A DNA stretch of 43,063 bases, taken from assembly GCA_009777935.1 (NCBI GenBank), contig WRKU01000002.1, forward strand, positions 75,205-118,267. The letters run 5' to 3'. The number at the start of each line of letters is the position of its first letter. Positions within the stretch are counted from its first letter, which is position 1. The translations under genes were made by a program, and so were the position numbers. A model generated the notes under the pieces. The model did not search any database, was not told the origin of the DNA, and worked only from the letters and a program-made list of their open reading frames with translations. Origin of the DNA: Coriobacteriia bacterium. GTDB taxonomy: Bacteria; Actinomycetota; Coriobacteriia; WRKU01. Positions 11,377-31,284 of the stretch are shown here, one piece after another.

Positions 11377-11401
11377 ATTGAGGGGGTGGGGAGTTTTTTC
11401 G

Positions 11402-12580
11402 ATGATTAGCGTCTTCTTCATACTCGATGAGGCATACTCTCTGTTCCCGGGTGGCGAGGGTGGTCCGCGCTTTGGTGGTGCGGGACTTCAGATGTATCTG
11501 CTAGCCGACGAACTCTCCAAAGATTCTGAACTCGACGTGCACTGGGTGTTTCTGAGCGCATGGCGTCCGATTGGCGTCAGCCTTCTTTCGCATCCACGTA
11601 TCACTATTTCCAACACATTGTCTTCTCCTGAAGACGAAAGACTTCGAATAGGTCCTCTTCCTATTCCTTTTGGGCGTACCGCACGAAGGTTTGTACGAAG
11701 AGCGAGGGGGATTGAGGAGCCAGAAGCGCCCTGTCAATCGCCATATCCGAAGGTGTTTATTTCAAGCATAGGGGGTTCTGCGCCTTTTTTACTCAGGGAA
11801 GCTGGGCGTGTTGATAACGCGAAAACGATACTGCGTCTCTCATCAGACACCGACACTATCAATCCACGTTGGTGCGATCGGCCTCGTGACGAGATGTTTA
11901 AGCTCTATCGCGCCATCGATCGGATTGTCACACAGACAAACAAGCAACACGATCTCTTGCTCGAAAACGCTTCGGTTAAAAGTACGCAGATTAGCAATAT
12001 GTGGCCAATTCCGAGTAACACTCCCTCGTATGAGCGAGAGCACGTTTTGTGGGTAGCCAGTGCACAAGCGCTTAAGCAGCCGTGGATTTTTCTCAATCTG
12101 GCAAAACAGTTTCCGAGTGAGAGATTTGTCATGGTCATGCCCGTAGCAAATGAAGTTCAGCTGGCAGAATACGTCATTCGGCAAGCATCAAGCGTAGATA
12201 ACCTGACCGTTATCGACGAGCAAGTTCCTCTCGAGGAGCTTGTGGAATACTTCGCTAAGGCCAAAGTTTTTGTAAACACTTCGGAAATAGAAGGCTTCCC
12301 CAATACATTCCTGCAGGCAGGAGCGGCGCGTACCCCCATTCTTTCGTTTGGCATAAATCCTGACGATATGCTCAACATCCACAAGATGGGCATCTGTGCA
12401 GATGGAGATGTCGACCGTCTCGTTGAAGGGCTTGCCACCCTGTTGGGCGATGAATCACTTCGAAAAGAGTGTGGCGATAACGGATTCGCGTACGTACGCG
12501 AGGTCCACAGCTCGCCGATTATCGCCGCACAATGGAAGGCACTCATTATGCAGCTGGCGACATTGCGTCGAGGAGAATAG
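11402..12580 (+). CDS. Glycosyltransferase, locus-expanded GT4-like family (copy 1)
   Basis: A 392-residue GT-B protein. The N terminus MISVFFILDEAYSLFPGG continues to FGGAGLQMYLLADELS. The C-terminal donor domain has WVASAQALKQPWIFLNLA and NTSEIEGFPNTFLQAG, the degenerate EX7E region of GT4. The start is the ATG at 11402 behind a strong GAGGGGGTGGGGAG purine stretch; an upstream TTG is less likely. It is a close paralogue of the GT at 13746: the first ~130 bases and the segment from 12049 to about 12420 are nearly identical in DNA, while the middle has diverged. It heads a forward block of overlapping genes to 17373. Confidence 0.82.
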   Translation: MISVFFILDEAYSLFPGGEGGPRFGGAGLQMYLLADELSKDSELDVHWVFLSAWRPIGVSLLSHPRITISNTLSSPEDERLRIGPLPIPFGRTARRFVRRARGIEEPEAPCQSPYPKVFISSIGGSAPFLLREAGRVDNAKTILRLSSDTDTINPRWCDRPRDEMFKLYRAIDRIVTQTNKQHDLLLENASVKSTQISNMWPIPSNTPSYEREHVLWVASAQALKQPWIFLNLAKQFPSERFVMVMPVANEVQLAEYVIRQASSVDNLTVIDEQVPLEELVEYFAKAKVFVNTSEIEGFPNTFLQAGAARTPILSFGINPDDMLNIHKMGICADGDVDRLVEGLATLLGDESLRKECGDNGFAYVREVHSSPIIAAQWKALIMQLATLRRGE

Positions 12581-12583
12581 AGA

Positions 12584-13753
12584 ATGATGCATGCGATTGC
12601 CCGAAAAGCTAAAATATTCCTTGCACTACTCTTGCATCCGCACTCACTTAAGCAGATACTGGCAGGTCAGTTGTATGAGGCTAAAGAGGAATACTATGCC
12701 CATCATGATTTTTTGACAACCGAAGCATTTTACTATTCAATCCGTCGCAGGCTAGAGGCACGTTATCGGATGCGTCTCGGCGTAGGCATGGCAAACCTCT
12801 CGCATCCAACGCTTTACTCTGAAAAGATTCAGTGGCGCAAGCTGTATTGCCCACAGGTCAAATTGATTGCGAAGGTTACCGATAAGGCCGGTGTCTATGG
12901 TTATGTTTGTGAGAAGATAGGCGATACTCATCTTCTGCCTCTCGTATGGAAAGGGAGTACGTTTGATGCCGACACTTTGCGAGCACTGGGTGATAACATC
13001 GTTTTGCAGCCGACACATCGTTCTGGACAGGTAGCTTTTATCGAAAAAGCCGAGTACATCGACTACGAGGCTCTCGCGCATTTATTGCACCGTATGTTGC
13101 TTTGGCCTTATTCCATGCGGGGACAAGAGCCGTGGTACGGCAGAATAAAAGCACAGATAATTGCACGTCCTTTGATTAGAAATTCCGATGGTAGCGCATT
13201 CTTGAATGACTATAAGTTTCACATGTTTCGACAGGCCGATGGAACAAGAAAGGTCGTATGTGCGATTACTAACATATATCCGCGCTGGCGCATTCTTGTT
13301 GACGAGAACTTCACGTCCCTTCCTTTTGAGTGGAATCCGACGGTGTACGAACATCTGAAAGAAGCTCCCGATAAACCGGATAATTTTGATGCAATGCTCG
13401 AAGATGCCTGTCGACTCTCTGAAGATTTTGATTGTGTGCGTGTAGATTTTATGATGGGTGCCGACGAGTATTATTTTACTGAACTTACCTTTGCCCCTGC
13501 GAGTGGACTTGCGTTTTTCTCCCCACCCGAATACGACAAAATTGTCGGAAGCTACTGGCATCTCGATACGGGCAATCCACTTAAGCGAGCTTTCTGGTTC
13601 TGTCGCGCATGGCTTCCCCTCTGGAAGACTGAACGTCCGATGAGAAATCTACGTAGACTTTATCGATACCGAAATGATTGGGCTATAACGGGCATTCGCC
13701 AGAAAGATTATGACAGGCGCTACCAAGAAGGAGGGGAGTTCTTCGATGGTTAG
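12584..13753 (+). CDS. TupA-like ATP-grasp protein
   Basis: A 389-residue protein resembling the ATPgrasp_TupA family, named after TupA of teichuronopeptide synthesis. These proteins are thought to link an amino acid or similar group to a glycan by ATP-dependent ligation. Visible family segments are LYSEKIQWRKLY, VTDKAGVYGYVCEKIG, GQEPWYGRIKAQIIARPLI, NDYKFHMF, a D-CVRVDFM metal/ATP region and FTELTFAPASGLAFFSP. It lies three bases after the first GT copy and overlaps the second copy by eight bases, so it is translated with them. It may decorate the surface polymer with an amino acid; the substrate is unknown. The start could be ATG 12584 or 12587. Confidence 0.85.
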   Translation: MMHAIARKAKIFLALLLHPHSLKQILAGQLYEAKEEYYAHHDFLTTEAFYYSIRRRLEARYRMRLGVGMANLSHPTLYSEKIQWRKLYCPQVKLIAKVTDKAGVYGYVCEKIGDTHLLPLVWKGSTFDADTLRALGDNIVLQPTHRSGQVAFIEKAEYIDYEALAHLLHRMLLWPYSMRGQEPWYGRIKAQIIARPLIRNSDGSAFLNDYKFHMFRQADGTRKVVCAITNIYPRWRILVDENFTSLPFEWNPTVYEHLKEAPDKPDNFDAMLEDACRLSEDFDCVRVDFMMGADEYYFTELTFAPASGLAFFSPPEYDKIVGSYWHLDTGNPLKRAFWFCRAWLPLWKTERPMRNLRRLYRYRNDWAITGIRQKDYDRRYQEGGEFFDG

Positions 13754-14879
13754 CGTCTTCTTTATACTCGACGAGGCATACTCTCTGTTTCCGGGTGGCG
13801 AGGACGGCCCGCGCTTTGGTGGTGCGGGACTTCAGATGTATCTGCTAGCCGACGAACTCTCCAAAGATTCTGAACTCGATGTTCATTGGATGTTTTTGAG
13901 TGCCAGTGCGCGACACCCCGTCGTTGATGTCATGTCGATTTCACATCCTCGCATAGCCCTTTCTCATATTCCACGGAATAGAACGGTTCCCTTCGGACAC
14001 GTTTTCATGAAATGGGCGTGGGAAAATAAAATGCGCTCGCGTTATGATTCGCCGCATCCAATTGTACTTATTGCAAGTACGGCGGTATATGCGTCCTGTC
14101 TCTTAGAGCAAGCCGAATATGCTCGTGCAAAGACTATCTTGCGCCTGTCATCCGATACCGACACCACCAACCCCCGTTGGAGTCAGCGATCTCGTGAAGA
14201 GGCCTTTTCACTCTATCGCGCTATCGACCAGATAGTGACCCAAACGCGTACGCAACACGACCTTTTGTTCAAGAATGTCTTTATCGAAAGTACGCGTATC
14301 GGCAGTATATGGCCTCTACCGAAAGATGGAATTTTCCTTGAACGAGAGCACATTCTGTGGGTAGCCAGTGCACAAGCGCTTAAGCAGCCGTGGATTTTTT
14401 TCAATCTGGCAAAACAGTTTCCGAGTGAGAGATTCGTCATGGTCATGCCCGTCACAAGTGAAGTTCAGCTGGCAGAATACGTCATTCGGCAAGCATCAAG
14501 CGTAGATAACCTGACCGTTATCGACGAGCAAGTACCTCTCGATGAACTCGTGGAATACTTTGCCAAGGCCAAAGTCTTTGTGAACACGTCGGAGATAGAA
14601 GGTTTTCCCAATACATTCCTGCAGGCAGGAGCGGTGCGTACACCTATTCTTTCGTTTGGCATTAATCCCGATGATATGCTCAACGTCCACAAGATGGGCA
14701 TCTGTGCAGATGGAGATGTCGAGCGTTTCACCGAAGGGCTTACCACTTTGCTGGGCGACGCATCGCTGCGAGACGAGTACGGCGAAAACGGTTTTAACTA
14801 CGTGAAGCAGTTTCACAACCCTACGCTGATTGCTTCGCAGTGGAAAGCGATTATCCAAGGAGTGCTCGATGGGAGATAG
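13746..14879 (+). CDS. Glycosyltransferase, locus-expanded GT4-like family (copy 2)
   Basis: A 377-residue paralogue of the 11402 protein. It begins MVSVFFILDEAYSLFPGGED and keeps FGGAGLQMYLLADELS, WVASAQALKQPWIFFNLA and TSEIEGFPNTFLQAG. The ATG at 13746 follows AAGGAGGGG and overlaps the TupA stop by eight bases. Residues of roughly 45-200 differ strongly from copy 1, whereas the ends are almost the same, including at third codon positions. This mosaic suggests recombination or gene conversion, and possibly different acceptors for the two enzymes. Function beyond glycosyl transfer is not predictable. Confidence 0.82.
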   Translation: MVSVFFILDEAYSLFPGGEDGPRFGGAGLQMYLLADELSKDSELDVHWMFLSASARHPVVDVMSISHPRIALSHIPRNRTVPFGHVFMKWAWENKMRSRYDSPHPIVLIASTAVYASCLLEQAEYARAKTILRLSSDTDTTNPRWSQRSREEAFSLYRAIDQIVTQTRTQHDLLFKNVFIESTRIGSIWPLPKDGIFLEREHILWVASAQALKQPWIFFNLAKQFPSERFVMVMPVTSEVQLAEYVIRQASSVDNLTVIDEQVPLDELVEYFAKAKVFVNTSEIEGFPNTFLQAGAVRTPILSFGINPDDMLNVHKMGICADGDVERFTEGLTTLLGDASLRDEYGENGFNYVKQFHNPTLIASQWKAIIQGVLDGR

Positions 14880-15060
14880 CAAAAAGCAAGTGGATAGGAC
14901 ACGGATATGCAACATCGTCAACGCGATGTTTGCGTGGCCTTATTCGATGATTGGCCAAGAGCCGTGGTATGGACATATTAAGCTACGTCGTCTTAAGTGT
15001 CGAACGGACGAATGGTGCATAACGAGCGTTCCTACGCCAGAAACGTGCTTTGTCCGATGA
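14869..15060 (+). pseudogene. TupA-like fragment (remnant ATP-grasp gene)
   Basis: A 63-codon frame. Residues about 14-41 (NAMFAWPYSMIGQEPWYGHIK) match the middle of the intact TupA-like protein at 12584 (RMLLWPYSMRGQEPWYGRIK), while both flanks are unrelated. It therefore keeps only an internal piece of the domain and lacks the metal and ATP residues. It overlaps the previous GT by 11 bases, and its TGA overlaps the next ATG in an ATGA. The remnant could still be translated and may pass ribosomes to the next gene. Best read as the second TupA of a duplicated GT-TupA unit, mostly deleted. Confidence 0.7.
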
Positions 15061-16169
15061 CGAAGGCCGTAACGCTCTTTTTCGACAATCCCCTTATTGG
15101 GGAGGTGCTTGATCCCGACTCGTTTGAGGTTCTTCGTTATGGGGGAGTTGAGGTCCAGATGGCCTATCTTATACGAGAACTTCTAAAAACCGACCTTTAC
15201 CAAGTTGTTATTATCACCGATAAACCGTTTTACTATCCTGGCGTTGAGATTCGCCCTCATCCCACTCTAATTCAACGAGGAGCGCCCGTTGTCTCTCGCT
15301 GGATTAATGCGTATCGTAAGAAAAAAGTCTTTCGTGCATGCACCAAGCGACGTATATTTCTTCCATGGTATATGAACAACTCTGTCGCTCTGATTGATGA
15401 GGCAATCCGTATGGGTGTGTCGACCGTGTTTCGTGTAAGCGGTGACGCAGTAGTTGATGGCTCCGACATTTTGCCGGCAGCACATCTCGAGTTAGTCTAT
15501 GCGTACTTCCCTCGGTTCGACAAGGTCATCTGTCAATCTGAGTATCAACAACGTCTTCTTGTTGAGCGTTGGGGTATTGATGCTCCCGTTATCGTCATGG
15601 GAACCGATTCGATTGCACCGTCACTTGCCAAGAACTCTTTGTTGTGGGTCGGGCGGTGCATAGAGCTCAAACAACCGAAACTTTTTTTGCACATCGCACG
15701 CGTATTTCCCGATATCGAGTGTCGCATGATTATGACGACTCCGCATACCGATACAATGTTTTATGACGCATTAGTTGAGGAAGCTGAAAGTATTTCCAAT
15801 CTCGTAATCGAGACAAACGTTCCTCACTGCGAGATGCCTCAACGTTATGCGCGTGCTCTTGCATTTATCAGTACGTCACTTACCGAGGGAGCACCCAATG
15901 TGTTTGCCGAGGCTGGTATGGCAGGCACTCCGGTTTTCTCGCTCAACGTGAATCCGGCGGGAGTGCTTGAGAACGGTGAGTTGGGAATGTGCGCACAGGG
16001 AGATTTCTTGAAACTGTGTAAGTCACTTAAGGCGTACCTCGACCAAACAGGTAACGAGCAGCTTATTCGTCAGGAGCAAGCACGCGTCTTTGCGCAATCA
16101 CACTGGAGCATCGAGCAGATGGTTGCGAGCTATCGACGCATCTTTGAGGAGTTGATGTCCGATGAGTGA
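15057..16169 (+). CDS. Glycosyltransferase, locus-expanded GT4-like family (copy 3)
   Basis: A 370-residue GT-B protein starting MTKAVTLFFDNPLIGEVLD. It has a YGGVEVQMAYLIRELL acceptor-domain loop, LLWVGRCIELKQPKLFLHIA, and LTEGAPNVFAEAGMAGTPVFSL in the donor domain. Its closest relative in the window is the GT at 23507, which matches almost segment by segment. It is more distantly related to the 11402 and 13746 copies. I chose the ATG at 15057 because it aligns with the paralogue start and forms an ATGA with the stop of the TupA fragment. A longer frame from 14997 exists but runs through the fragment. It overlaps the next gene by eight bases. Confidence 0.82.
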   Translation: MTKAVTLFFDNPLIGEVLDPDSFEVLRYGGVEVQMAYLIRELLKTDLYQVVIITDKPFYYPGVEIRPHPTLIQRGAPVVSRWINAYRKKKVFRACTKRRIFLPWYMNNSVALIDEAIRMGVSTVFRVSGDAVVDGSDILPAAHLELVYAYFPRFDKVICQSEYQQRLLVERWGIDAPVIVMGTDSIAPSLAKNSLLWVGRCIELKQPKLFLHIARVFPDIECRMIMTTPHTDTMFYDALVEEAESISNLVIETNVPHCEMPQRYARALAFISTSLTEGAPNVFAEAGMAGTPVFSLNVNPAGVLENGELGMCAQGDFLKLCKSLKAYLDQTGNEQLIRQEQARVFAQSHWSIEQMVASYRRIFEELMSDE

Positions 16170-17373
16170 TCGGCACATCGCCATCTTATCTCAGGGAATT
16201 GTTGCGCATGATGGACGCTTGCGTAAACACGCACGTGCACTAGCCAACGCAAACTATCGCGTCACGGTTGTAGGACGGCGTGCGCTGGATGGGCAAGAGC
16301 CTAACGAGCCCTTTGAGGTCGTCTATCTTCAGCAGGATCGCCCTGATTTTATGTGGCCATGGTGGGGACGTCCGTCGGTGTGGCGACCGGTTCGCGGTGT
16401 GGTTAATCGGACATACACGCAGGTAAGGTTGGATTTTCACTGGCGTGCCTTAATCACCAGCTCCGAGCTCACCGATATCGGTTATGCGCTTAAACCTGAC
16501 GTTGTAGTGGCAAGTGATCTCTATGCGCTCAAGAGTGCCGGTCTTGTCTCACAAAGGCTTGATGTTCCACTTGTATTTGATTCCTATGAGTTCTTCGAGG
16601 GCTACTTCGATAACCACTATGCGCAACGAGAAGCTAATCGCTTGCTGAAAAAATGGGTGCCGCGTGCATCGGCACTGCTGAGCCCATGTCCTCTTAAACC
16701 GTTAGGGAATCTTTATGCACGTGCACGCCGAGAGATTGTCATTGCTAATAGCGCACCGTGGGAAGAAGTGACACCAACGGCACTACACGAACCCATTCGC
16801 CTGTTGAGTCAGAGCGGGATCAGGAGGGCATCGGGTGAGCTGCTGATGGTGCAGGCGATGCAGTACCTGCGCGATAAGGCGACGCTTACAGTTCAAGGGC
16901 GCAGTGTCGACCCCGCATATCTGGCCGAGATAGAAGACACCATTGCGCGTCACGGCCTTGAGGATGTTGTTACCCTAACGGGAGCATTTGACCCATCGGA
17001 GGGTGTTCGATGTGCTAATGCTTTCGACATCGGTACGGTAACGCGTCCGAGTCCGCTGAGTCGCAACAATGACATCGCACGGCCCAATCGCTTCTACAAT
17101 TACCTCAACGCAGGGCTGGCATGTGCAGTGGGAAACACAACAGGGTTTCGTACGTTTTCCGGCATGGACGAGTTCGGCATTCTGCTCGATACCACCTCAC
17201 CGGAAACGATCGCGCGTGATCTGCGTCCCCTTCTTGAGAATCCTGAGCAAATTGCGCACATGAAGTATCGCGCAAAAGAGCTCTATCGCCCCCACACGTG
17301 GGAAGAGCAGGAGAGGAAGTTGCTCGCGCTTTACGCAGAGATGTTTGCGTCAGAGAGCGCTTCGGCGGCTTGA
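16162..17373 (+). CDS. Glycosyltransferase (GT4-like)
   Basis: A 403-residue GT-B protein. The N terminus IAILSQGIVAHDGRLRKHARALANANYRVTVVG is an acceptor-domain pattern seen in many capsule and O-antigen GT4 enzymes. DSYEFFEGYF and the donor-side segments LTVQGRS, VVTLTGAFDPSEGVRCANAFDIGTV and RPNRFYNYLNAGLACAVGNTTG follow. A canonical EX7E is not obvious. It closes the 11402-17373 block and converges on wecB with a 16-base gap. The donor is unknown; the fold assignment is firmer than any substrate. Confidence 0.75.
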   Translation: MSDRHIAILSQGIVAHDGRLRKHARALANANYRVTVVGRRALDGQEPNEPFEVVYLQQDRPDFMWPWWGRPSVWRPVRGVVNRTYTQVRLDFHWRALITSSELTDIGYALKPDVVVASDLYALKSAGLVSQRLDVPLVFDSYEFFEGYFDNHYAQREANRLLKKWVPRASALLSPCPLKPLGNLYARARREIVIANSAPWEEVTPTALHEPIRLLSQSGIRRASGELLMVQAMQYLRDKATLTVQGRSVDPAYLAEIEDTIARHGLEDVVTLTGAFDPSEGVRCANAFDIGTVTRPSPLSRNNDIARPNRFYNYLNAGLACAVGNTTGFRTFSGMDEFGILLDTTSPETIARDLRPLLENPEQIAHMKYRAKELYRPHTWEEQERKLLALYAEMFASESASAA

Positions 17374-17389: not shown

Positions 17390-18538
17390 TTATGTTGTCT
17401 TAAATCCCACAATCGCCTCAACACATCGCGTGGCGGCTTGTCCGTCCCAGAGCGGGGGGATATGAGGCTTGGGTTCGACGGCACGCACCTTGGTGTATGC
17501 CTCGTCGAGCGATGTGCGTGTGGTACCGGCCAACACACCCAATCCTCCGTGCTCTACAAGTGTGATGGGACGTTCGGTGTTGGGGCGTACCACCAGAAAT
17601 GGGGTGCCCAGCACACAGCACTCCTCCTGCAATCCGCCGCTGTCAGTTATCATGAGCGCAGCTCCGAGGTTGAGGCGCAGCATTTCTCGGTAGCCTACCG
17701 GCTTTGTGAGAATGATACGCGGGTTTGCGAGCAGCTTACCGAGTAGACCGGCGGTTTCAAGTGCTCTCTGGGTACGAGGATGAAGTGGCCAGATCATCGG
17801 TAGGTCGCCGGCGATTGTTTCGGTTAGCCATTCGGTAATTTCACGAAGTGCGAGAGGGTCGTCAACGTTTGCGGGTCGATGGAGCGTCGCAACAGCGTAG
17901 GAGCTGTCGGCAAAGGTATCGTCTGCCGGTAGCACCTGCCCTTCAACGAGAGCCTCGTTGACAATGGTGGTCACATCCAGCGCACGCGCCGCATCAAGCT
18001 GTTCGTTGAGGGTATCGATCATGATGTTGCCCACGAAGCAAATCGTTTGAGCGTTGTGCCCTTCACGGGCAAGCGTTTCGCTGCTACCGACATCCGGTGT
18101 AAGGAGCAGGTCGCTTATTGTGTCGGTTATCACCCGATTGATTTCTTCGGGCATCGAGCGGTCGTAGCTGCGTAAGCCTGCCTCGATATGAGCAACACGA
18201 ACCTCTCGATAAGCTGCGGCTTGGCTACACGCAACGGTGGCGTTGACGTCACCGACAACGACGACCCAGTCGGGTTTTTCGGCAAGAAGTACCTGCTCGA
18301 ACGCGGTCATCGTTGCACCGATCTGCTCGGCATGGGTGCCAGAGCCGATGCCGAGATTGATATCGGGCATGGGGATGTTAAGTTTACTGAAGAATACCTG
18401 TGACATCGCATCATCGTAGTGCTGACCGGTATGCACGAGTATGTGCTCGATTGTCGTGTCAGCCTGCTTAACGGCACGGACGAACGGTGCAATCTTGATA
18501 AAGTTAGGCCGAGCTCCAACCACGCTGATAATCTTCAC
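17390..18538 (-). CDS. wecB: UDP-N-acetylglucosamine 2-epimerase, non-hydrolysing
   Basis: A 382-residue enzyme that converts UDP-GlcNAc to UDP-ManNAc. Family motifs run in order: VGARPNFIKIAPF at the N terminus, TGQHYDDAMS, VVVGDVNATVA, HIEAGLRSYDRSMPEEINRVITD, DTLHRP-like ATLHRPANVDD, WPLHPRT and ITDSGGLQEECCVLGTPFLV. The start is a GTG with AAAGGAG just upstream. It is transcribed alone on the minus strand, divergent from the 18624 cassette. Its first 88 codons and promoter are duplicated at 21968-22288. The product could feed a ManNAc or ManNAcA residue, since a WbpA/WecC-type dehydrogenase lies at 3321. Confidence 0.93.
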   Translation of the reverse strand: MKIISVVGARPNFIKIAPFVRAVKQADTTIEHILVHTGQHYDDAMSQVFFSKLNIPMPDINLGIGSGTHAEQIGATMTAFEQVLLAEKPDWVVVVGDVNATVACSQAAAYREVRVAHIEAGLRSYDRSMPEEINRVITDTISDLLLTPDVGSSETLAREGHNAQTICFVGNIMIDTLNEQLDAARALDVTTIVNEALVEGQVLPADDTFADSSYAVATLHRPANVDDPLALREITEWLTETIAGDLPMIWPLHPRTQRALETAGLLGKLLANPRIILTKPVGYREMLRLNLGAALMITDSGGLQEECCVLGTPFLVVRPNTERPITLVEHGGLGVLAGTTRTSLDEAYTKVRAVEPKPHIPPLWDGQAATRCVEAIVGFKTT

Positions 18539-18596
18539 TGGACTCCTTTCACACTATCTCTATTGTAGGGTTAATGGTGGTAGAATGGGGCTATGA
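18276..18596. repeat. Direct repeat, left copy (wecB 5' end plus divergent promoter)
   Basis: These 321 bases match 21968-22288 at a constant offset of 3692 with no indel. By hand I count 17 mismatches, about 95% identity. Homology begins in TTTTCGGCAAG inside wecB and stops sharply at the ATGA of 18593-18596. The two copies are in the same orientation and flank the three-gene cassette 18624-21724. Confidence 0.9.
18581..18593 (+). promoter_or_regulatory. -10 box (TAGAAT-N6-ATG) upstream of the dehydratase gene
   Basis: TAGAAT (18581-18586) is followed after six bases by an ATG at 18593. This spacing would put the transcript start at or next to the A of that ATG. The same element is repeated at 22273, where the ATG is the start of a real gene. 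No good -35 is visible. Confidence 0.4.
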
Positions 18597-18646
18597 GTTT
18601 TTGTCTGTTAGATAGGATGAAAAGTGACCAAACCATTCGAGGGTAA
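18593..18646 (+). other. Stranded start codon and 17-residue upstream frame overlapping the next gene
   Basis: From the ATG at the end of the direct repeat a frame of 17 codons runs to TAA at 18644-18646. It overlaps the GTG start at 18624 in another frame. It does not resemble anything. It is most simply a leftover start codon of the promoter module, but if the transcript is leaderless it would be translated and could affect initiation at 18624. Confidence 0.3.
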
Positions 18647-19679
18647 AAACATACTGGTGACCGGTGGTACTGGCTCGTTGGGGCAGGTGCTCGTTAGGCG
18701 TATTCTGTCCGGTGTTGAGGGGCTGCCTGAAAGTGTGACAGTCTTTTCGCGCGATGAAGCGAAGCAACACTATATGCGCCTTGAGTGCATGGATCGCGCG
18801 ACTGCTACCGATGAGGTTATCTTTGAGAACTCACAACGGTGTTTGCGCTTCGTTTTGGGTGACGTGCGTGATTACGCCAGTGTGGCGCGGGTGGCACACG
18901 GCAAAGACATCATCTTTGCGGCAGCTGCGCTCAAACAGGTGCCGAGCTGCGAATACTTCCCCTGGGAGGCGTGCCGCACTAACATCCTGGGTGCCGAAAA
19001 TCTGGTACGCGCTATCGCTGAGCATAATTTGCCCATTGATACCGTCGTTGGCATCAGCACCGATAAAGCGTGCAAGCCGGTCAACGTTATGGGTATGACG
19101 AAGGCAATCCAAGAGCGTGTCTACATCGAAGGTAACTTACGTGCACCGCAAACGCGTTTTATTGCGGCGCGTTACGGCAATGTACTTGCATCACGCGGAT
19201 CGGTCGTACCGCTCTTTCTTGACCAAATTGCAGCAGGTGGGCCCGTCACTATCACGACCGAAGATATGACACGTTTCCTACTTACGCTCGAAGATTCTGT
19301 TGATACTATTATCGCAGCGGTTAAGGCTGGCGAGCCGGGCGAGACTTACATTCCGCGCTGCCGCTCTGCATACATGACCGATCTTGCGAAGTTCCTCATT
19401 GGCGACCGAGATATCGAAATAGTTGTGACCGGCATTCGTCCAGGCGAGAAGATTCACGAGTCGCTACTGGCTGCCGAAGAATCGACACGTACCGTCTTTG
19501 GCGCAGAGGGTTACTATGCGCTTCGTCCGATGCTGCCCGAGCTTGCCGACCCTGTAGATGAGCCGGCGCTTGTGGGTGAGTATTCGTCCGATACCGCACT
19601 TATGACCTCCGATGAGCTAGCTAAGTTCCTCACGGAAAAGATTCCTGAAGTTATCGGCGCACGTTATCTGGAGTCGTAA
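18624..19679 (+). CDS. UDP-GlcNAc 4,6-dehydratase/epimerase (FnlA/CapE/WbvB family)
   Basis: A 351-residue SDR enzyme of the polysaccharide biosynthesis CapD-short group. The NADP loop is TGGTGSLGQVL. FSRDEAKQHYMR, DVRDYASVARV, AAALKQVPSCEYFPWEACRTNILGA and STDKACKPVNVMGMTKAIQER follow, where the MXXXK-type residues replace YXXXK as is usual in inverting 4,6-dehydratases. It would convert UDP-GlcNAc to a UDP-2-acetamido-2,6-dideoxy-L-hexos-4-ulose. The GTG start has AGGA about six bases upstream. It is the first gene of a cassette with the epimerase and reductase that complete the pathway; its stop abuts the next start. Confidence 0.88.
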   Translation: MTKPFEGKNILVTGGTGSLGQVLVRRILSGVEGLPESVTVFSRDEAKQHYMRLECMDRATATDEVIFENSQRCLRFVLGDVRDYASVARVAHGKDIIFAAAALKQVPSCEYFPWEACRTNILGAENLVRAIAEHNLPIDTVVGISTDKACKPVNVMGMTKAIQERVYIEGNLRAPQTRFIAARYGNVLASRGSVVPLFLDQIAAGGPVTITTEDMTRFLLTLEDSVDTIIAAVKAGEPGETYIPRCRSAYMTDLAKFLIGDRDIEIVVTGIRPGEKIHESLLAAEESTRTVFGAEGYYALRPMLPELADPVDEPALVGEYSSDTALMTSDELAKFLTEKIPEVIGARYLES

Positions 19680-20825
19680 ATGCCGAAGGTCATAACGCTT
19701 CTCGGAACGCGTCCGGAGATTATCCGGCTCTCGCGAGTGATTGCGCTGCTTGACGAAAGACTTGGCGCAGGTGAGGGCCATATTCTTGCACACACTGGCC
19801 AAAACTACGACGACCGTCTCGACGGACTGTTTTTTCGCGACCTAAACGTGCGCAAACCTGATGAGTACATGGGCGTACGTGCTGACACGTTTGGCGCACA
19901 GGTGGCGCAGATTCTCGAAAAGAGCGAGGCCTTGTTTGTGCGCGAACAGCCTGATGCCATGCTCATCTTGGGCGACACGAATACCGGTCTGGCAGCGTTT
20001 ATTGCCAAACGCATGGGCATTCCTGTCTATCACATGGAGGCTGGCAATCGTTGTTACGACGATACGGTGCCCGAAGAGGTCAACCGGCGCGTCATCGACC
20101 ACAGTTCTGATGTGTTGTTGCCCTATACCTTTAACAGCGCACGCAATCTCGAGCGCGAGGGTATCGAGCCCGAGCGTATCATTGTGACCGGTAACCCCAT
20201 CAAAGAAGTGCTCGATTACTATGCTGAACAGATCGAGGCGGCCGATCCCTTCACCCAGTACGGGGTCAAACCGGGTCAATACATTCTGGTAACCGCACAC
20301 CGCGCCGAGATGACCGATGTGCCTCACCGGCTTGCTGCGCTCATCGATGCGCTCGGTAAGGCCGGCGATATGTACGACATGCCAGTACTCGTTTCGCTAC
20401 ATCCACGCACACGCAAAAAGATGGACGCACAGAATATTGTGCCAAGCGAGCGCATCAAGTTCTTCCCTCCGATGGGTCTCTTCGACTTTGTACGTCTCGA
20501 AAAGGAAGCGTTCTGTGTGTTGAGTGATAGCGGAACCGTGCAGGAAGAGTGTTGCATCTTTGGAGTTCCGACCGTCACGATGCGCGACGTGACCGAACGC
20601 CCCGAAACGATCGAGTGCGGTAGCAATGTGCTCGGTGGAGTCGAGGCGGCGCGTATCTTGCCGCTCATGGAGGAGATGATTGCACGCCGCGGTACGTGGA
20701 CGCCGCCGGAAGAATATCTGCGCGACAATGTTGCGGTCACGGTCGGCGATATCATGATGCAGGGACTCGCATCGGAGGAGTCTGTGCCGGAGGATGAGAT
20801 TACGATAAAGAGGGAGCTGGCATGA
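19680..20825 (+). CDS. UDP-2-acetamido-2,6-dideoxy-L-hexose 2-epimerase (FnlC/CapG/WbvD family)
   Basis: A 381-residue relative of WecB. LLGTRPEIIRLSRV, TGQNYDDRLDGLFF, LILGDTNTGLAA, HMEAGNRCYDDTVPEEVNRRVIDH, TAHRAEMTD and SDSGTVQEECCIFGVPTVTMRD are all present. The NRCYD and TAHRAE variants mark the FnlC/CapG branch, which acts on 6-deoxy sugars, rather than WecB itself. It starts at the base after the dehydratase stop and overlaps the reductase start by four bases. Within the cassette it would perform the last C2 epimerisation giving UDP-L-FucNAc or UDP-L-QuiNAc. Confidence 0.88.
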   Translation: MPKVITLLGTRPEIIRLSRVIALLDERLGAGEGHILAHTGQNYDDRLDGLFFRDLNVRKPDEYMGVRADTFGAQVAQILEKSEALFVREQPDAMLILGDTNTGLAAFIAKRMGIPVYHMEAGNRCYDDTVPEEVNRRVIDHSSDVLLPYTFNSARNLEREGIEPERIIVTGNPIKEVLDYYAEQIEAADPFTQYGVKPGQYILVTAHRAEMTDVPHRLAALIDALGKAGDMYDMPVLVSLHPRTRKKMDAQNIVPSERIKFFPPMGLFDFVRLEKEAFCVLSDSGTVQEECCIFGVPTVTMRDVTERPETIECGSNVLGGVEAARILPLMEEMIARRGTWTPPEEYLRDNVAVTVGDIMMQGLASEESVPEDEITIKRELA

Positions 20826-21724
20826 GTGTGGATGTGCAGCGTGTCCTTGTTCTCGGTGCCAGCGGTATGCTGGGACACGAAGCAGTGCGGGTGCTCGCGC
20901 CTGACTTTGAGGTCTTCGCGGCGTTGCGCGAGACGAGCGACGTGCTCGGCCTTGGCCTAGACCTGGCACACGCGCTTGCGGGACTTGACGCGTTCGACAT
21001 TGCGACGGCACGCACGATGTTCGAGGTAGCACGTCCCGACATGGTCATCAATGCTGTCGGTATCATCAAACAGGTCGACGAATCGAAGGCGGCAGTACCG
21101 TCCATCACGGTGAACTCGCTCTGGCCCCATCAATTGGCACAGCTGTGCGCAGAGTTCGGCGCACGCCTTATCCATCCCAGTACTGACTGTGTCTTCAGTG
21201 GCACAAACTGCCCCGAAGGTGGCTATCGCGAAAGCGATACGCCCGATGCGACCGATCTCTACGGACGCTCGAAGCTACTTGGCGAGGTAACCGAGTATCC
21301 GCATGCCCTGACGATACGCACCTCGATTATTGGCTGGCAGATAGGTGTGCAGAACAGTCTCATCGGCTGGTTCGCGGAGCACCGTCACGAGCCGAATCTC
21401 AAAGGTTATACGCGTGCCGTCTTCAGTGGGCTTTCGACGACGGCTCTCACGGAGACTATACGCGACTATGTGTTTGAACGTCCCGACCTACACGGTCTCT
21501 ATCATGTGTCGCTGGCACCCATTGACAAGTTCACGCTGCTCTCCAAACTTGCTGCTGCATGCGGCTGGGATGACGTTGACCTTACTCCAGTCAATGAACC
21601 GCGAGTGGACAAAACGCTTAACAGTGAACGCTTTCAGGATGCAACCGGCTGGGTACCGTCGCAGTGGGATACGATTATTGAAGGACTTGCGCGGCAATAT
21701 GATGTACACGAAGAGTGCTTATGA
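20822..21724 (+). CDS. RmlD-like UDP-4-keto-sugar reductase (WbvR/FnlB role)
   Basis: A 300-residue SDR protein of the RmlD substrate-binding family. The NAD(P) loop is LGASGMLGHEAV, followed by PDMVINAVGIIKQVDESK, PSTDCVFSGTNCPEGGYRESD and the catalytic DLYGRSKLLGE (YXXXK). It overlaps the 2-epimerase in an ATGA. It lacks the C-terminal cupin domain of CapF/FnlB/WbjC, which points to the WbvR-type reduction that makes UDP-L-RhaNAc and then L-QuiNAc rather than L-FucNAc. That is inference from length and family. It is the last gene of the cassette; downstream lie only gene fragments. Confidence 0.82.
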   Translation: MSVDVQRVLVLGASGMLGHEAVRVLAPDFEVFAALRETSDVLGLGLDLAHALAGLDAFDIATARTMFEVARPDMVINAVGIIKQVDESKAAVPSITVNSLWPHQLAQLCAEFGARLIHPSTDCVFSGTNCPEGGYRESDTPDATDLYGRSKLLGEVTEYPHALTIRTSIIGWQIGVQNSLIGWFAEHRHEPNLKGYTRAVFSGLSTTALTETIRDYVFERPDLHGLYHVSLAPIDKFTLLSKLAAACGWDDVDLTPVNEPRVDKTLNSERFQDATGWVPSQWDTIIEGLARQYDVHEECL

Positions 21725-21729
21725 CTGCC

Positions 21730-21967
21730 AGAATACCAATAGTATTTCGGTACCCTGCTGCTAAACCTTGGAGAACGCGTGCGACCATATCGTGCGTGTT
21801 GCCGTACAGGTACTGCATGGGATAGATACGCTCTGCCCCGTTCCAGTGGCGGATGAGGGGGATGCAGCCGGAGGCCATACCCTCCGAGACGGCCATATGA
21901 AAACTTTCGTTGTCACTCGTTGAGATAATCCAGCCGCACTGCGCGTAGAAGTCTGCGATATTATTGC
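21730..21967 (-). pseudogene. Glycosyltransferase C-terminal fragment
   Basis: On the minus strand a short stretch reads IADFYAQCGWIISTSDNESFHMAVSEGMASG and then CIPLIRHWNGAERIYP. This is the donor-domain region of a GT4-type glycosyltransferase. Nothing before it encodes the rest of such a protein: at 21968 the sequence switches to the wecB-derived repeat. The 3' part runs out over the end of the reductase gene. It is a broken remnant, kept adjacent to the wecB fragment by a deletion or recombination. Confidence 0.6.
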
Positions 21968-22230
21968 TTTTCGGCAAGAAGTACCTGCTCGAACGCGGTC
22001 ATCGTTGCACCAATCTGCTCAGCGTGGGTGCCGCTGCCAATGCCGAGATTGATATCGGGCATGGGGATGTTAAGTTCGCTGAAAAATATCTGTGACATCG
22101 CATCATCGTAGTGCTGACCGGTATGCACGAGTATGTGCTCGATTGTCGTGTCAGCCTGCTCAACCGCACGGACGAACGGTGCAATCTTGATAAAGTTAGG
22201 CCGAGCTCCGACCACGCTGATAATCTTCAC
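21961..22230 (-). pseudogene. Truncated wecB copy (first 88 codons)
   Basis: Eighty-nine codons from the GTG at 22230 match the N terminus of the intact WecB at 18538 with three substitutions, and then diverge after LLAEK into Q and a stop. The remaining ~290 residues are absent, including HIEAGLRS and the C-terminal domain, so the product cannot be active. The ribosome-binding site and promoter are intact, so it may still be expressed. It marks the right-hand direct repeat. Confidence 0.9.
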
Positions 22231-22288
22231 TGGACTCCTTTCGCACTATCTCTATTGTAGGGCTAATGATGGTAGAATGGGGCTATGA
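21968..22288. repeat. Direct repeat, right copy
   Basis: Partner of 18276-18596. Here the module drives the glycosyltransferase at 22285, whose ATG is the last codon inside the repeat. Recombination between the two copies would remove 3692 bases, including the cassette at 18624-21724 and both fragments, and would leave an intact wecB facing the 22285 gene. Confidence 0.9.
22273..22285 (+). promoter_or_regulatory. -10 box (TAGAAT-N6-ATG), candidate leaderless promoter
   Basis: TAGAAT (22273-22278), six bases, then the ATG of the glycosyltransferase. No Shine-Dalgarno fits between them, so the transcript probably starts at or within a base or two of the start codon. The spacing equals that at 28580-28592. 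Confidence 0.45.
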
Positions 22289-23505
22289 ATCTTGTAATAC
22301 TAACAGGGCCATTCATGAGTTCGGGCACCATCGCCTCCTCTACGTTTATCACTACTGTTTTGGCGGGTGTGCAGCTCAATGGAGGAAATGCGCGTGTAGT
22401 GGAGTTTACGAGCGGGAAGCTGTCCCTTGGCACCTGTACCGACAACGCGGTTACTTTTGAGAAGATAGAGCACGCAAAAGGCTTCTTCACGTCCGCTTAT
22501 ACCGTATTAGCTAATCTATTGCGCTCTTTGGACTGGAATCCAGAAGACTCGGTTCTGATGTCATACCCTCGTTCATTGGATCACGTTGCTCTTGCGTATT
22601 CGGTTACGCAACAATTGGGTTGGAAGTTTGGGATATTTTCAACGGAGCTTATTGATGAGCAAAGAATGAAGGAGAGCAGTATACCGGACTATCTGACTTT
22701 TGCCACTCAAGCGGACATTGTGTGGGCGGTCGTAGAGTCTCTGGCTGACTTTTGGCAAGAGCACGGAGTTTCTGAGAAACGTATATTCACTAATATCACC
22801 ACGATATTTGATGATGCTGTTATTAATCCGGATTCAGTTGTTCCGACCTCTGATGTGGTGTTTGTGGGCAACATTGAGGATCGATACTGGGAAATCTTGC
22901 GCGATATTGCTGGCATTATGTCAAAAAGGCGTCCTGACTTTACCATGCAAATCTATGCCGCCTCGAGTGCAGAGCGCAAAGCAACATGTCAAGAGGATTT
23001 ACGCGCACGTGGTCTTGAGGAGGTCGTGAAGATTAATCCTGTGCTGTGCTACCCCGATTTGGTGCCTGCTATCGCGTGCTCACGTGTGGCAATCTCTCCC
23101 TGTCCTGTCCCAGATGGGTTTCCGCAAAAAATTGGCGATTATCTCTGTAGTGGACGACCCATCGTCTCACCGATGGGTATGAATATGAGGCACACTTTCT
23201 CCGAAGGAAAAAATATCTTAACGGCACCGATGGACGACCTCGAAGGTTTTACTGACAAGATTAACCAGCTCTTGGACAATCCAGCATACGCGCGCGAGGT
23301 CGGGCTCGCCGGACAGGCGTTGCTCGGTGAATACTTTTCAGGCAAAGCAGCGACCATGCGCTTTATGGAGCAGGTACAGAGCATCACCAGACGTAGAAAA
23401 AAGAACCGCTTTGTGCCAAGATTTATCGATTGTTTCAAGCAGACCGAGTGCGCACGCATACTGGTTCGTATGAGGAATCGCGTGTGGCGGCGAGATGGGC
23501 AGTGA
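22285..23505 (+). CDS. Glycosyltransferase (GT4-like)
   Basis: A 406-residue GT-B protein. The acceptor domain opens MNLVILTGPFMSSGTIASSTF. The donor domain has VVFVGNIEDRYWEILRDIAGIM, QIYAASSAER and SPCPVPDGFPQKIGDYLCSGRPIVSPMGM. The last of these corresponds to the GFPNKLGEYLASG segment of the reverse GT at 10223, so the two belong to the same subgroup. A basic tail (RRRKKNRFVPRF) suggests membrane association. The start codon lies in the duplicated promoter module and no ribosome-binding site is present. It heads a three-gene block, with a one-base gap before the next ATG. Confidence 0.8.
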   Translation: MNLVILTGPFMSSGTIASSTFITTVLAGVQLNGGNARVVEFTSGKLSLGTCTDNAVTFEKIEHAKGFFTSAYTVLANLLRSLDWNPEDSVLMSYPRSLDHVALAYSVTQQLGWKFGIFSTELIDEQRMKESSIPDYLTFATQADIVWAVVESLADFWQEHGVSEKRIFTNITTIFDDAVINPDSVVPTSDVVFVGNIEDRYWEILRDIAGIMSKRRPDFTMQIYAASSAERKATCQEDLRARGLEEVVKINPVLCYPDLVPAIACSRVAISPCPVPDGFPQKIGDYLCSGRPIVSPMGMNMRHTFSEGKNILTAPMDDLEGFTDKINQLLDNPAYAREVGLAGQALLGEYFSGKAATMRFMEQVQSITRRRKKNRFVPRFIDCFKQTECARILVRMRNRVWRRDGQ

Positions 23506-23506
23506 G

Positions 23507-24619
23507 ATGATAACACTCTTTTTTGATAATGCGCGAATGGGAGAGATACTTGACCCAGAGTTCTCTTCGGCAGAAGGTTTTGGCGGCATTCAGGTTCAGA
23601 TGGCGTATCTTGTTCGAGAACTACTAAAGACGGGAAAATATAGAATTGCCGTTATATCAAACGAGTCCTTCTCTTATCCGGGCATTGAGTTTCGACCCAG
23701 TCCGAGACTCATCAGACGGGGAATACCAATCATCTCTCGATGGATTAATACGTACCAGAAGAAACGTGTGTTTCGCGCAGATACACCCCGACGCATTTTC
23801 CTGCAGTCACATATCAGAGACGGAAGTGCCGCGGACAGCGCCATCGCTGCTGGCGTAGAGGTGGTATTTCGGGTAAATGGGGATGGGCTTGTCGATGGCT
23901 CAATGCTTACCTTACAGTCGTATCTCGATTTACTGCATACCTACCTACCTAAGTTTAGCGCGGTTATATGCCAATCAGAGCATCAGCAGCGGCTTATCAA
24001 AGAGAGATGGGATATCGACGCATCGATTGTTACAATGGGGACCGACGCGATTCCGCCAACGGAGAACAAAAACTCTCTTTTGTGGGTGGGGCGGTGCGTT
24101 CCGCTCAAACAGCCCTGGCTCTTTCTCGATATTGCCCGAAGCCTTCCTGAGCACAGATGTCATATGGTGCTTTCAACACCCCATTGGACCGATGCTGAGT
24201 TCGCTAATGTTATTGAGGCGAATGCTGCGACGATTCCCAATCTTACGATAGAGCGCAATGTTTCCTACTCCGATATGGCCGAACGTTATGCAGGTGCATT
24301 GGCTTTTGTGAGCACCTCGCTTGTTGAGGGTGCCCCCAATGTTTTTGCTGAAGCGGGAATGGCCGCCACTCCAGTTTTTTCGCTGGCTGTAAACCCTGCC
24401 AATATGCTCGATGATGAGCACCTCGGTGTCTGTGCTCAAGGCAATCTCACACATCTCATTGAACTGCTGAGACGTTATCTCATGGCATTACCTGATGAGC
24501 AGGCCGCTCGTCAAAAGCAAGCTCAGGACTTTGCGCAGTCGCAGTGGAGCGTCGACAAGATGGTGGCAAGTTATCGACGTGTTTTCGAGCACGATATGGT
24601 CTCGGAGCATGACGCCTAA
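23507..24619 (+). CDS. Glycosyltransferase, locus-expanded GT4-like family (copy 4)
   Basis: A 370-residue paralogue of the 15057 protein with the same length. MITLFFDNARMGEILD, FGGIQVQMAYLVRELL, LLWVGRCVPLKQPWLFLDIA and LVEGAPNVFAEAGMAATPVFSL align one to one. The ATG at 23507 follows the previous stop by one base and matches the paralogue start; a frame extension to 23495 is unnecessary. It overlaps the next gene by 11 bases. The duplicated pairs (15057/23507 and 11402/13746) suggest the locus grew by copying GT units. Confidence 0.82.
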   Translation: MITLFFDNARMGEILDPEFSSAEGFGGIQVQMAYLVRELLKTGKYRIAVISNESFSYPGIEFRPSPRLIRRGIPIISRWINTYQKKRVFRADTPRRIFLQSHIRDGSAADSAIAAGVEVVFRVNGDGLVDGSMLTLQSYLDLLHTYLPKFSAVICQSEHQQRLIKERWDIDASIVTMGTDAIPPTENKNSLLWVGRCVPLKQPWLFLDIARSLPEHRCHMVLSTPHWTDAEFANVIEANAATIPNLTIERNVSYSDMAERYAGALAFVSTSLVEGAPNVFAEAGMAATPVFSLAVNPANMLDDEHLGVCAQGNLTHLIELLRRYLMALPDEQAARQKQAQDFAQSQWSVDKMVASYRRVFEHDMVSEHDA

Positions 24620-29965: not shown

Positions 29966-30007
29966 TAAAACTTAACAAATATGATGCAAGAAGTCCCGGC
30001 TCATTGC

Positions 30008-30036
30008 TTGCGGGAACGTCCGTTTTCCGCTACACT
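30008..30036 (+). promoter_or_regulatory. Candidate promoter for the cytochrome operon
   Basis: TTGCGG (30008-30013), 17 bases, TACACT (30031-30036), pointing to the ATG at 30046. The expected transcript start is within a few bases of the start codon and no ribosome-binding site is visible, so a leaderless or nearly leaderless mRNA is likely. Confidence 0.4.
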
Positions 30037-30045
30037 CAAAGCACT

Positions 30046-31281
30046 ATGTCTTTTCGTCGCCCTCGCCCGATAGAAGCGTTTCGCAACCCCGCCTCGCGTC
30101 CGCGTGCCATCATCTGGGTCGCAACTGTCACCATTGCGTTTCTCTTGTTTGTGACCGTCGCAGTGGCAGCAACGACGGCGTTTTGGTTCTGTGCGGACAT
30201 CTGTCATTCGGTGCAGGTCGATACCATTAACTCGTATCTGAACTCGACGCATGACACCGTCGCCTGCGTCTCGTGTCACATAAAACCCGGCGCCGATCCC
30301 GTCACATTCCTGTGGGGCAAGGCGAAAAAACTTGCCGAGCTCCCGCCCACCATCATGGGCACCTACGACATGCCACTCAATCCCGTCAGCCAGCTTGCGA
30401 TGAGCGGGGTCTACATGGGATCCCAGCAGTGTATGCAGTGCCATCAGGGTGGCGACCGTTTTGTCACTCCCAGCTATGGCATCATCATGGACCACGACAT
30501 TCATGCGGACAACGATATCGCCTGTGCCGTGTGCCACAATCGCGTGGGACACCAAGAGCAGGGTATCGAGCTCGTGGGCGTCAATCCTCAGACCGGCGAA
30601 GCGGCCTTCCCGCACCCCGATTACATGGATATGAAGGCGTGCTATCGTTGCCACCGCCTTGAGGCCGATGGCCTGAAAGATGGACTCGCTGAGTTCCCGA
30701 CGCCGCTCATGGTTTCGGGCGCATGCGAGCTTTGCCATCCGCCGGAGTTCGACCTCGTTCCACCGTCGCATTACGTCGAGCGATTCGTCGAGGACGTTCA
30801 TGGCCCGATGGCCATCGAAGAAGAAGAAGGCGTCAGACAAGGCGCGGAGCTGGTCGCAGCAGCTTTCGAGCGCCACAACTATGATGAGAAATCGACGCCT
30901 GAAGGCGATGCCGTACGTGACATTCCGAACTCGCTCGTCATCAACGATTGCTACACCTGCCATGCCGTCAGTTTCTGTGACGACTGTCACCTTGGTGTGC
31001 GCATGCCACACCCTGAGAACTACCTCGAGCTTCACGTTGAAGATTCCGTGCGCAACATGGCCGGCTGTGAACTTTGCCACGGCGGTCCCGAACTCGTATG
31101 TGTCGAGTGTCATCACACCGACCCGTGGATTCCCGGCTATCAGCTCGACCCGACGCGATCGTGGCTGGCGCAGCACTGGGATCCGTGTGCGATTCTCGGT
31201 GCAGCCATGTGCTTCGACTGTCATGACCCGGTGTTCTGCGCATACTGCCACGTGAACGGCTTCCCACCCGAACGTCGGTAA
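30046..31281 (+). CDS. Membrane-anchored multihaem cytochrome c (NapC/NrfH-type N terminus), 12 potential haem sites
   Basis: A 411-residue protein with one N-terminal membrane helix (about residues 21-46) and the rest outside the cytoplasm. I count eleven CXXCH haem sites: CVSCH, CMQCH, CAVCH, CYRCH, CELCH, CYTCH, CDDCH, a second CELCH, CVECH, CFDCH and CAYCH. A twelfth, non-standard CX3CH lies just after the helix (C49 to H54, FCADICHS), where NapC/NrfH carries its first haem. The NapC/NrfH family takes electrons from menaquinol. This protein is much longer and may pass them on along a haem chain to a periplasmic or surface acceptor. I chose ATG 30046, since the helix follows at once. It is followed after three bases by the radical SAM gene. 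Confidence 0.88.
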   Translation: MSFRRPRPIEAFRNPASRPRAIIWVATVTIAFLLFVTVAVAATTAFWFCADICHSVQVDTINSYLNSTHDTVACVSCHIKPGADPVTFLWGKAKKLAELPPTIMGTYDMPLNPVSQLAMSGVYMGSQQCMQCHQGGDRFVTPSYGIIMDHDIHADNDIACAVCHNRVGHQEQGIELVGVNPQTGEAAFPHPDYMDMKACYRCHRLEADGLKDGLAEFPTPLMVSGACELCHPPEFDLVPPSHYVERFVEDVHGPMAIEEEEGVRQGAELVAAAFERHNYDEKSTPEGDAVRDIPNSLVINDCYTCHAVSFCDDCHLGVRMPHPENYLELHVEDSVRNMAGCELCHGGPELVCVECHHTDPWIPGYQLDPTRSWLAQHWDPCAILGAAMCFDCHDPVFCAYCHVNGFPPERR

Positions 31282-31284
31282 CAT

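Follow-up and report, generated by a model that had tools for sequence, protein, structure and literature searches.

Gene content of the locus and the repeat pair

The region of interest lies within a 43,063-bp window (the whole stretch of DNA analysed here) of a 1.1-Mb draft genome that consists of 21 contigs and is 86% complete. It contains a wecB-type epimerase gene, a three-gene cassette for the synthesis of a nucleotide sugar, flanking glycosyltransferase genes and a direct repeat, arranged as follows:

16162-17373, plus strand: glycosyltransferase located to the left of wecB
17390-18538, minus strand: intact wecB-type non-hydrolysing UDP-GlcNAc 2-epimerase, 382 aa (TIGR00236 wecB, 279 bits against a cut-off of 210; PF02350)
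18276-18596, no strand assigned: repeat copy 1, wecB codons 1-87 and the divergent upstream region
18624-19679, plus strand: UDP-GlcNAc 4,6-dehydratase, a CapE/WbjB/FnlA-like SDR with a GTG start (Polysacc_synt_2; best PDB matches CapE and WbjB)
19680-20825, plus strand: CapG/WbjD-like non-hydrolysing 2-epimerase (best PDB match CapG 7ya2, E = 5e-91)
20822-21724, plus strand: RmlD-like 4-keto reductase, 300 aa, with a natural C-terminus (PF04321)
21675-21966, recognisable over ~21764-21966, minus strand: C-terminal part of a glycosyltransferase, its 5' part missing and its 3' end entering the reductase gene
21968-22288, no strand assigned: repeat copy 2, a truncated 5' part of wecB (88 codons, minus strand, ORF 21961-22230) and the upstream region
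22285-23505, plus strand: group 1 glycosyltransferase, starting from an ATG in the last bases of repeat copy 2 (PF13692)

The two copies of the repeat are in the same orientation, are offset by 3692 bp and differ by 17 mismatches over 321 bp with no indels, exactly as the original prediction had described them. Homology between the copies begins abruptly at 18276/21968 and ends just as abruptly at 18596/22288, the flanking sequences being unrelated on either side, and the longest exact run common to both is 71 bp (18398-18468). In a within-genome search, the copies match each other with E = 1.4e-143 and a third copy is absent from the genome, so the pair is not a product of chance. The predicted dehydratase, 2-epimerase and reductase genes between the copies are present and intact, and the "two gene fragments" reported next to them correspond to the glycosyltransferase piece and to repeat copy 2 itself.

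The divergent promoter that the two copies had been proposed to share is a more equivocal feature: a consensus promoter scan gave no hit within the shared region and fewer hits than with shuffled sequences, yet an extended -10-like element, TGGTAGAAT, noticed by eye, is retained in both copies immediately upstream of the ATG at 18593/22285. Inspection by eye further shows that, in copy 1, the ATG matching the start of the 22285 gene opens a frame of 17-18 codons (18593-18646) that overlaps the GTG start of the dehydratase gene and is possibly a leader peptide or the beginning of a lost gene. Two other candidate signals were dropped, namely an identical stretch of 44 bp at the left end as the mark of a crossover, which is indistinguishable from chance, and a stronger conservation of the upstream region compared with synonymous sites (P = 0.13).

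With respect to the UDP-L-FucNAc pathway (CapE/CapF/CapG, also known as WbjB/C/D or FnlA/B/C), the dehydratase is clearly related to CapE and the 2-epimerase to CapG, whereas the 300-aa reductase is RmlD-like and the gene order is dehydratase, 2-epimerase, reductase. The dehydratase is 76-79% identical to the genes of relatives but scores below the NCBIfam cut-offs for both FnlA (238 bits against 730) and PseB; the 2-epimerase genes of relatives are 65-71% identical to that of the cassette. The reductase aligns through its end with the gene of a relative, which identifies its C-terminus as natural, and its best PDB matches are dTDP-4-dehydrorhamnose reductases; CapF, the bifunctional 3-epimerase/reductase, was not among its matches in family, NCBIfam and PDB searches, so the cassette is not a strict CapEFG/FnlABC set. 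The cassette would supply a UDP-6-deoxy-HexNAc, which may be of the L-FucNAc or the L-QuiNAc type, and wecB would supply UDP-ManNAc. The 16162-17373 glycosyltransferase is a possible user of the cassette sugar because a 33% identical gene adjoins the reductase gene in one relative (G013).

The block formed by wecB and the cassette has a GC content of 0.54-0.57, against mostly 0.47-0.51 in the glycosyltransferase blocks on both sides. Each of these low-GC blocks carries one member of a pair of paralogous glycosyltransferase genes (14997-16169 and 23495-24619), the proteins of which are 56% identical. Elsewhere in the window, an ORF on the plus strand (30004-31281) fully overlaps one on the minus strand (30001-31284); only the former matches protein families (multihaem cytochrome c, NapC/NirT, c7), so the latter is probably spurious.

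Divergence of the copies and recombination between them

Most of the mismatches between the copies (14 of 17) fall within wecB codons. They affect 12 codons, nine of them synonymously, including the codon for Ser66 (TCT against AGC), and three with a change of residue (K24E, V48I and K52E) at positions that are variable among homologues. The resulting estimates for the wecB part are dS 0.17 and dN 0.025; in a simulation of neutral decay with the same number of substitutions, three or fewer residue changes were obtained with P = 6e-5 and a stop codon appeared in 25% of the trials, whereas the wecB frame of copy 2 contains no stop before the junction. At that junction, at 21967, the 88 wecB codons are fused to the 5'-truncated glycosyltransferase fragment, and beyond it the wecB frame meets a stop immediately.

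With a quarter of the codon changes altering a residue and with these values of dS and dN, the copies diverged separately, under purifying selection, as parts of functional wecB genes, and the truncation came late. The substitutions show that copy 2 spent nearly the whole time since the copies separated as part of a working wecB, the truncation being recent relative to the divergence. The synonymous excess rules out copy 2 as a simple decaying duplicate, and the mismatch pattern as a whole fits neither such a duplicate nor a repeat maintained for identity. The mismatches are unevenly spread, with 11 of the 17 located within 78 bp (P = 0.008, for a segment picked after viewing the data), and gene conversion between the copies may therefore have shifted their apparent divergence.

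The original prediction was that a single crossover between the copies would delete 3692 bp, keep wecB whole and leave the 22285 gene with the same promoter. The arithmetic of this claim is right: as computed, a crossover at any of the 321 positions leaves wecB complete at 382 aa and the 22285 gene undamaged, its upstream sequence included, and reduces the window to 39,371 bp. The accompanying claim, that the pathway would be lost with the deletion, is probable given that the assembly holds no second close copy of the cassette 2-epimerase. The further step, from deletion to an "on/off" route for surface-sugar change, is not supported. Deletion between direct repeats loses DNA, and its reversal is not expected; the change would be one-way, and the mismatches indicate the junction of two functional wecB alleles rather than a maintained switch repeat. 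Divergence like that of unlinked sequence, which the original prediction had named as an argument against itself, is seen in part, in the dS of 0.17 combined with selection on the protein. An on/off switch of the cassette at this repeat is accordingly unlikely. More specifically, we consider it highly improbable that the direct repeat has been maintained because crossover deletion gives a sugar-off state: wecB and the 22285 gene do survive from every crossover point, and a repeat with an exact run of 71 bp is long enough for RecA recombination, but neither a deletion junction nor an empty or otherwise deleted allele has come to light, the nearest wecB genes being ~58% identical, and it was wecB, rather than sameness of the repeat, that selection favoured while the 17 differences built up. 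As a side effect of its presence, the repeat could nevertheless lead to irreversible loss of the cassette or to its amplification.

wecB is not the only partly duplicated gene of this locus, which contains a second direct repeat:

11394-14790, plus strand: second direct repeat, two mosaic glycosyltransferase genes, paralogous to each other, on either side of a TupA-like gene (12584-13753)

The repeated segments are 11394-11559/13738-13903 and ~12031-12480/14339-14790. The two glycosyltransferases are ~90-94% identical over the first 160 nt and 84-98% identical in a C-terminal block of 400 nt, whereas their middle parts have diverged to 22-74%; dS is 0.3-0.4 and dN ~0.025-0.05. A crossover here would delete 2308 bp and produce a fused, open glycosyltransferase gene. 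Since both direct repeats bracket small sugar-specific cassettes, the whole locus might be thought to be built to rearrange, with independent crossovers generating surface-sugar variants in one population; we consider this idea highly improbable.

Origin of the repeat

The arrangement observed here, an intact and a truncated copy of one sugar-nucleotide enzyme gene around a synthesis cassette, with the copies representing diverged alleles of functional genes, is that expected of a scar left by the acquisition of a module. We consider it reasonably probable that the repeat arose in this manner, through recombination that joined two diverged wecB modules within a surface-polysaccharide locus. 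Under this scenario, two modules, each consisting of wecB and its upstream region, would have diverged separately as working genes, one of them facing the dehydratase/2-epimerase/reductase cassette and the other facing the 22285 glycosyltransferase. The shared wecB region would have served as a homologous anchor at one end, with an illegitimate join at the other end, and recombination would have placed the cassette beside the resident module; the second, resident wecB would thereby have been broken off at codon 88 and fused to a disrupted glycosyltransferase gene. In its one-step form, this would be homology-facilitated illegitimate recombination (HFIR), from which a two-step gain followed by a deletion would be indistinguishable.

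Several observations favour acquisition, beginning with the mostly synonymous divergence of the copies and the fusion of copy 2 to a unique glycosyltransferase fragment. The fragment, of ~90 residues, is single-copy in the genome and shows at most 36% identity to the C-terminal parts of glycosyltransferases of 360-490 aa; a search for its parent in 400 genomes of the class yielded matches at no more than 39% identity. The separation of the cassette from wecB in relatives points in the same direction. The cassette is a travelling block: its genes have 51-79% identical counterparts in three-gene blocks of other members of the class, where nine genomes carry a 2-epimerase at least 65% identical (65-71%) to that of the cassette, several of them with the dehydratase and the reductase adjoining, and none of the nine has a close wecB within 10 kb of the close 2-epimerase. 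In one of the relatives (G003), wecB lies among homologues of the polysaccharide genes of the window and the cassette is on a different contig. The GC contrast of the wecB-cassette block, the galE1/galE2 precedent in Neisseria meningitidis and the presence in this genome of a comEC-type gene, albeit of a family also found in 10 of the 14 control genomes, are also in favour. The nearest wecB genes are ~57-58% identical (the best in a search of the 84,980-species genome_contigs set), and no close relative that lacks the cassette at this site or carries just one of the two modules was detected among 14 species genomes of the order, 60 relatives, the genome_contigs set and IMG/VR; as neither a donor nor a recipient allele was found, the order of events is what we infer from the final structure.

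The same final structure and an equally synonymous divergence are predicted if the wecB-upstream unit was duplicated within one genome, if both copies long remained functional, and if the second wecB was eventually cut, together with the adjoining glycosyltransferase, by a deletion; two complete wecB genes in one genome followed by a deletion would leave an identical scar. The existence of another diverged tandem paralogue pair in the locus lends this alternative some weight. It appears doubtful to us, however, because it requires two full, selected wecB genes to have persisted for long, a few kb apart, without homogenising or deleting each other, and because no larger duplicated unit is seen, the regions outside the repeat being unrelated on both sides. 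An artefactual origin, in which the metagenome assembler fused the versions of the locus from two strains, has to be weighed as well, given the fragmented draft and the fact that strain mixtures can yield such joins. We regard it as improbable, since a false join requires sequence common to both versions, whereas the junctions at ~21725 and ~21967 lie in sequence whose fragment part is single-copy in the genome, and the changeover does not fall inside the repeat.

Overall, the feature is real and of an ordinary kind, most likely an acquisition scar that incidentally created a deletion-prone direct repeat. It provides a readable join of two surface-sugar modules in a lineage without close sequenced relatives and, if deletions are found in reads, would become a simple test case for the loss of a surface sugar via repeat recombination.

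Comparison with known systems

Homology-facilitated illegitimate recombination has been described in Streptococcus pneumoniae, Acinetobacter baylyi, Pseudomonas stutzeri and Escherichia coli (PMC3240628), and has been invoked for T6SS modules with similar displaced remnants in Vibrio cholerae (PMC5361080). The likeness to the present case is that one homologous anchor and one illegitimate junction add a module and leave a truncated resident gene downstream; in contrast to those systems, the process here is deduced from one end-state rather than observed, and in the E. coli tests single crossovers with partial duplication were commoner than true HFIR (PMC3240628).

The closest parallel in layout is the cps locus of N. 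meningitidis, where the capsule genes lie between an intact galE1 and a truncated galE2 remnant, which differ in ancestry, in Regions D and D' (PMC5349592, PMC3647402), an arrangement explained by illegitimate recombination into a resident galE (PMC5349592). The Neisseria repeats are inverted, include rfbBAC and permit inversion, which has been seen by PCR, whereas the repeat described here is direct and shorter (321 bp), the part of the truncated gene that remains is the 5' and not the 3' end, and the rearrangement allowed would, as far as can be told from the sequence, be a deletion. In both cases, a cassette for polysaccharide synthesis, horizontally acquired in Neisseria, lies between an intact and a truncated, diverged copy of one gene for a sugar-nucleotide epimerase, which shows that this layout, known from the meningococcal capsule locus, is also found in an unrelated bacterium.
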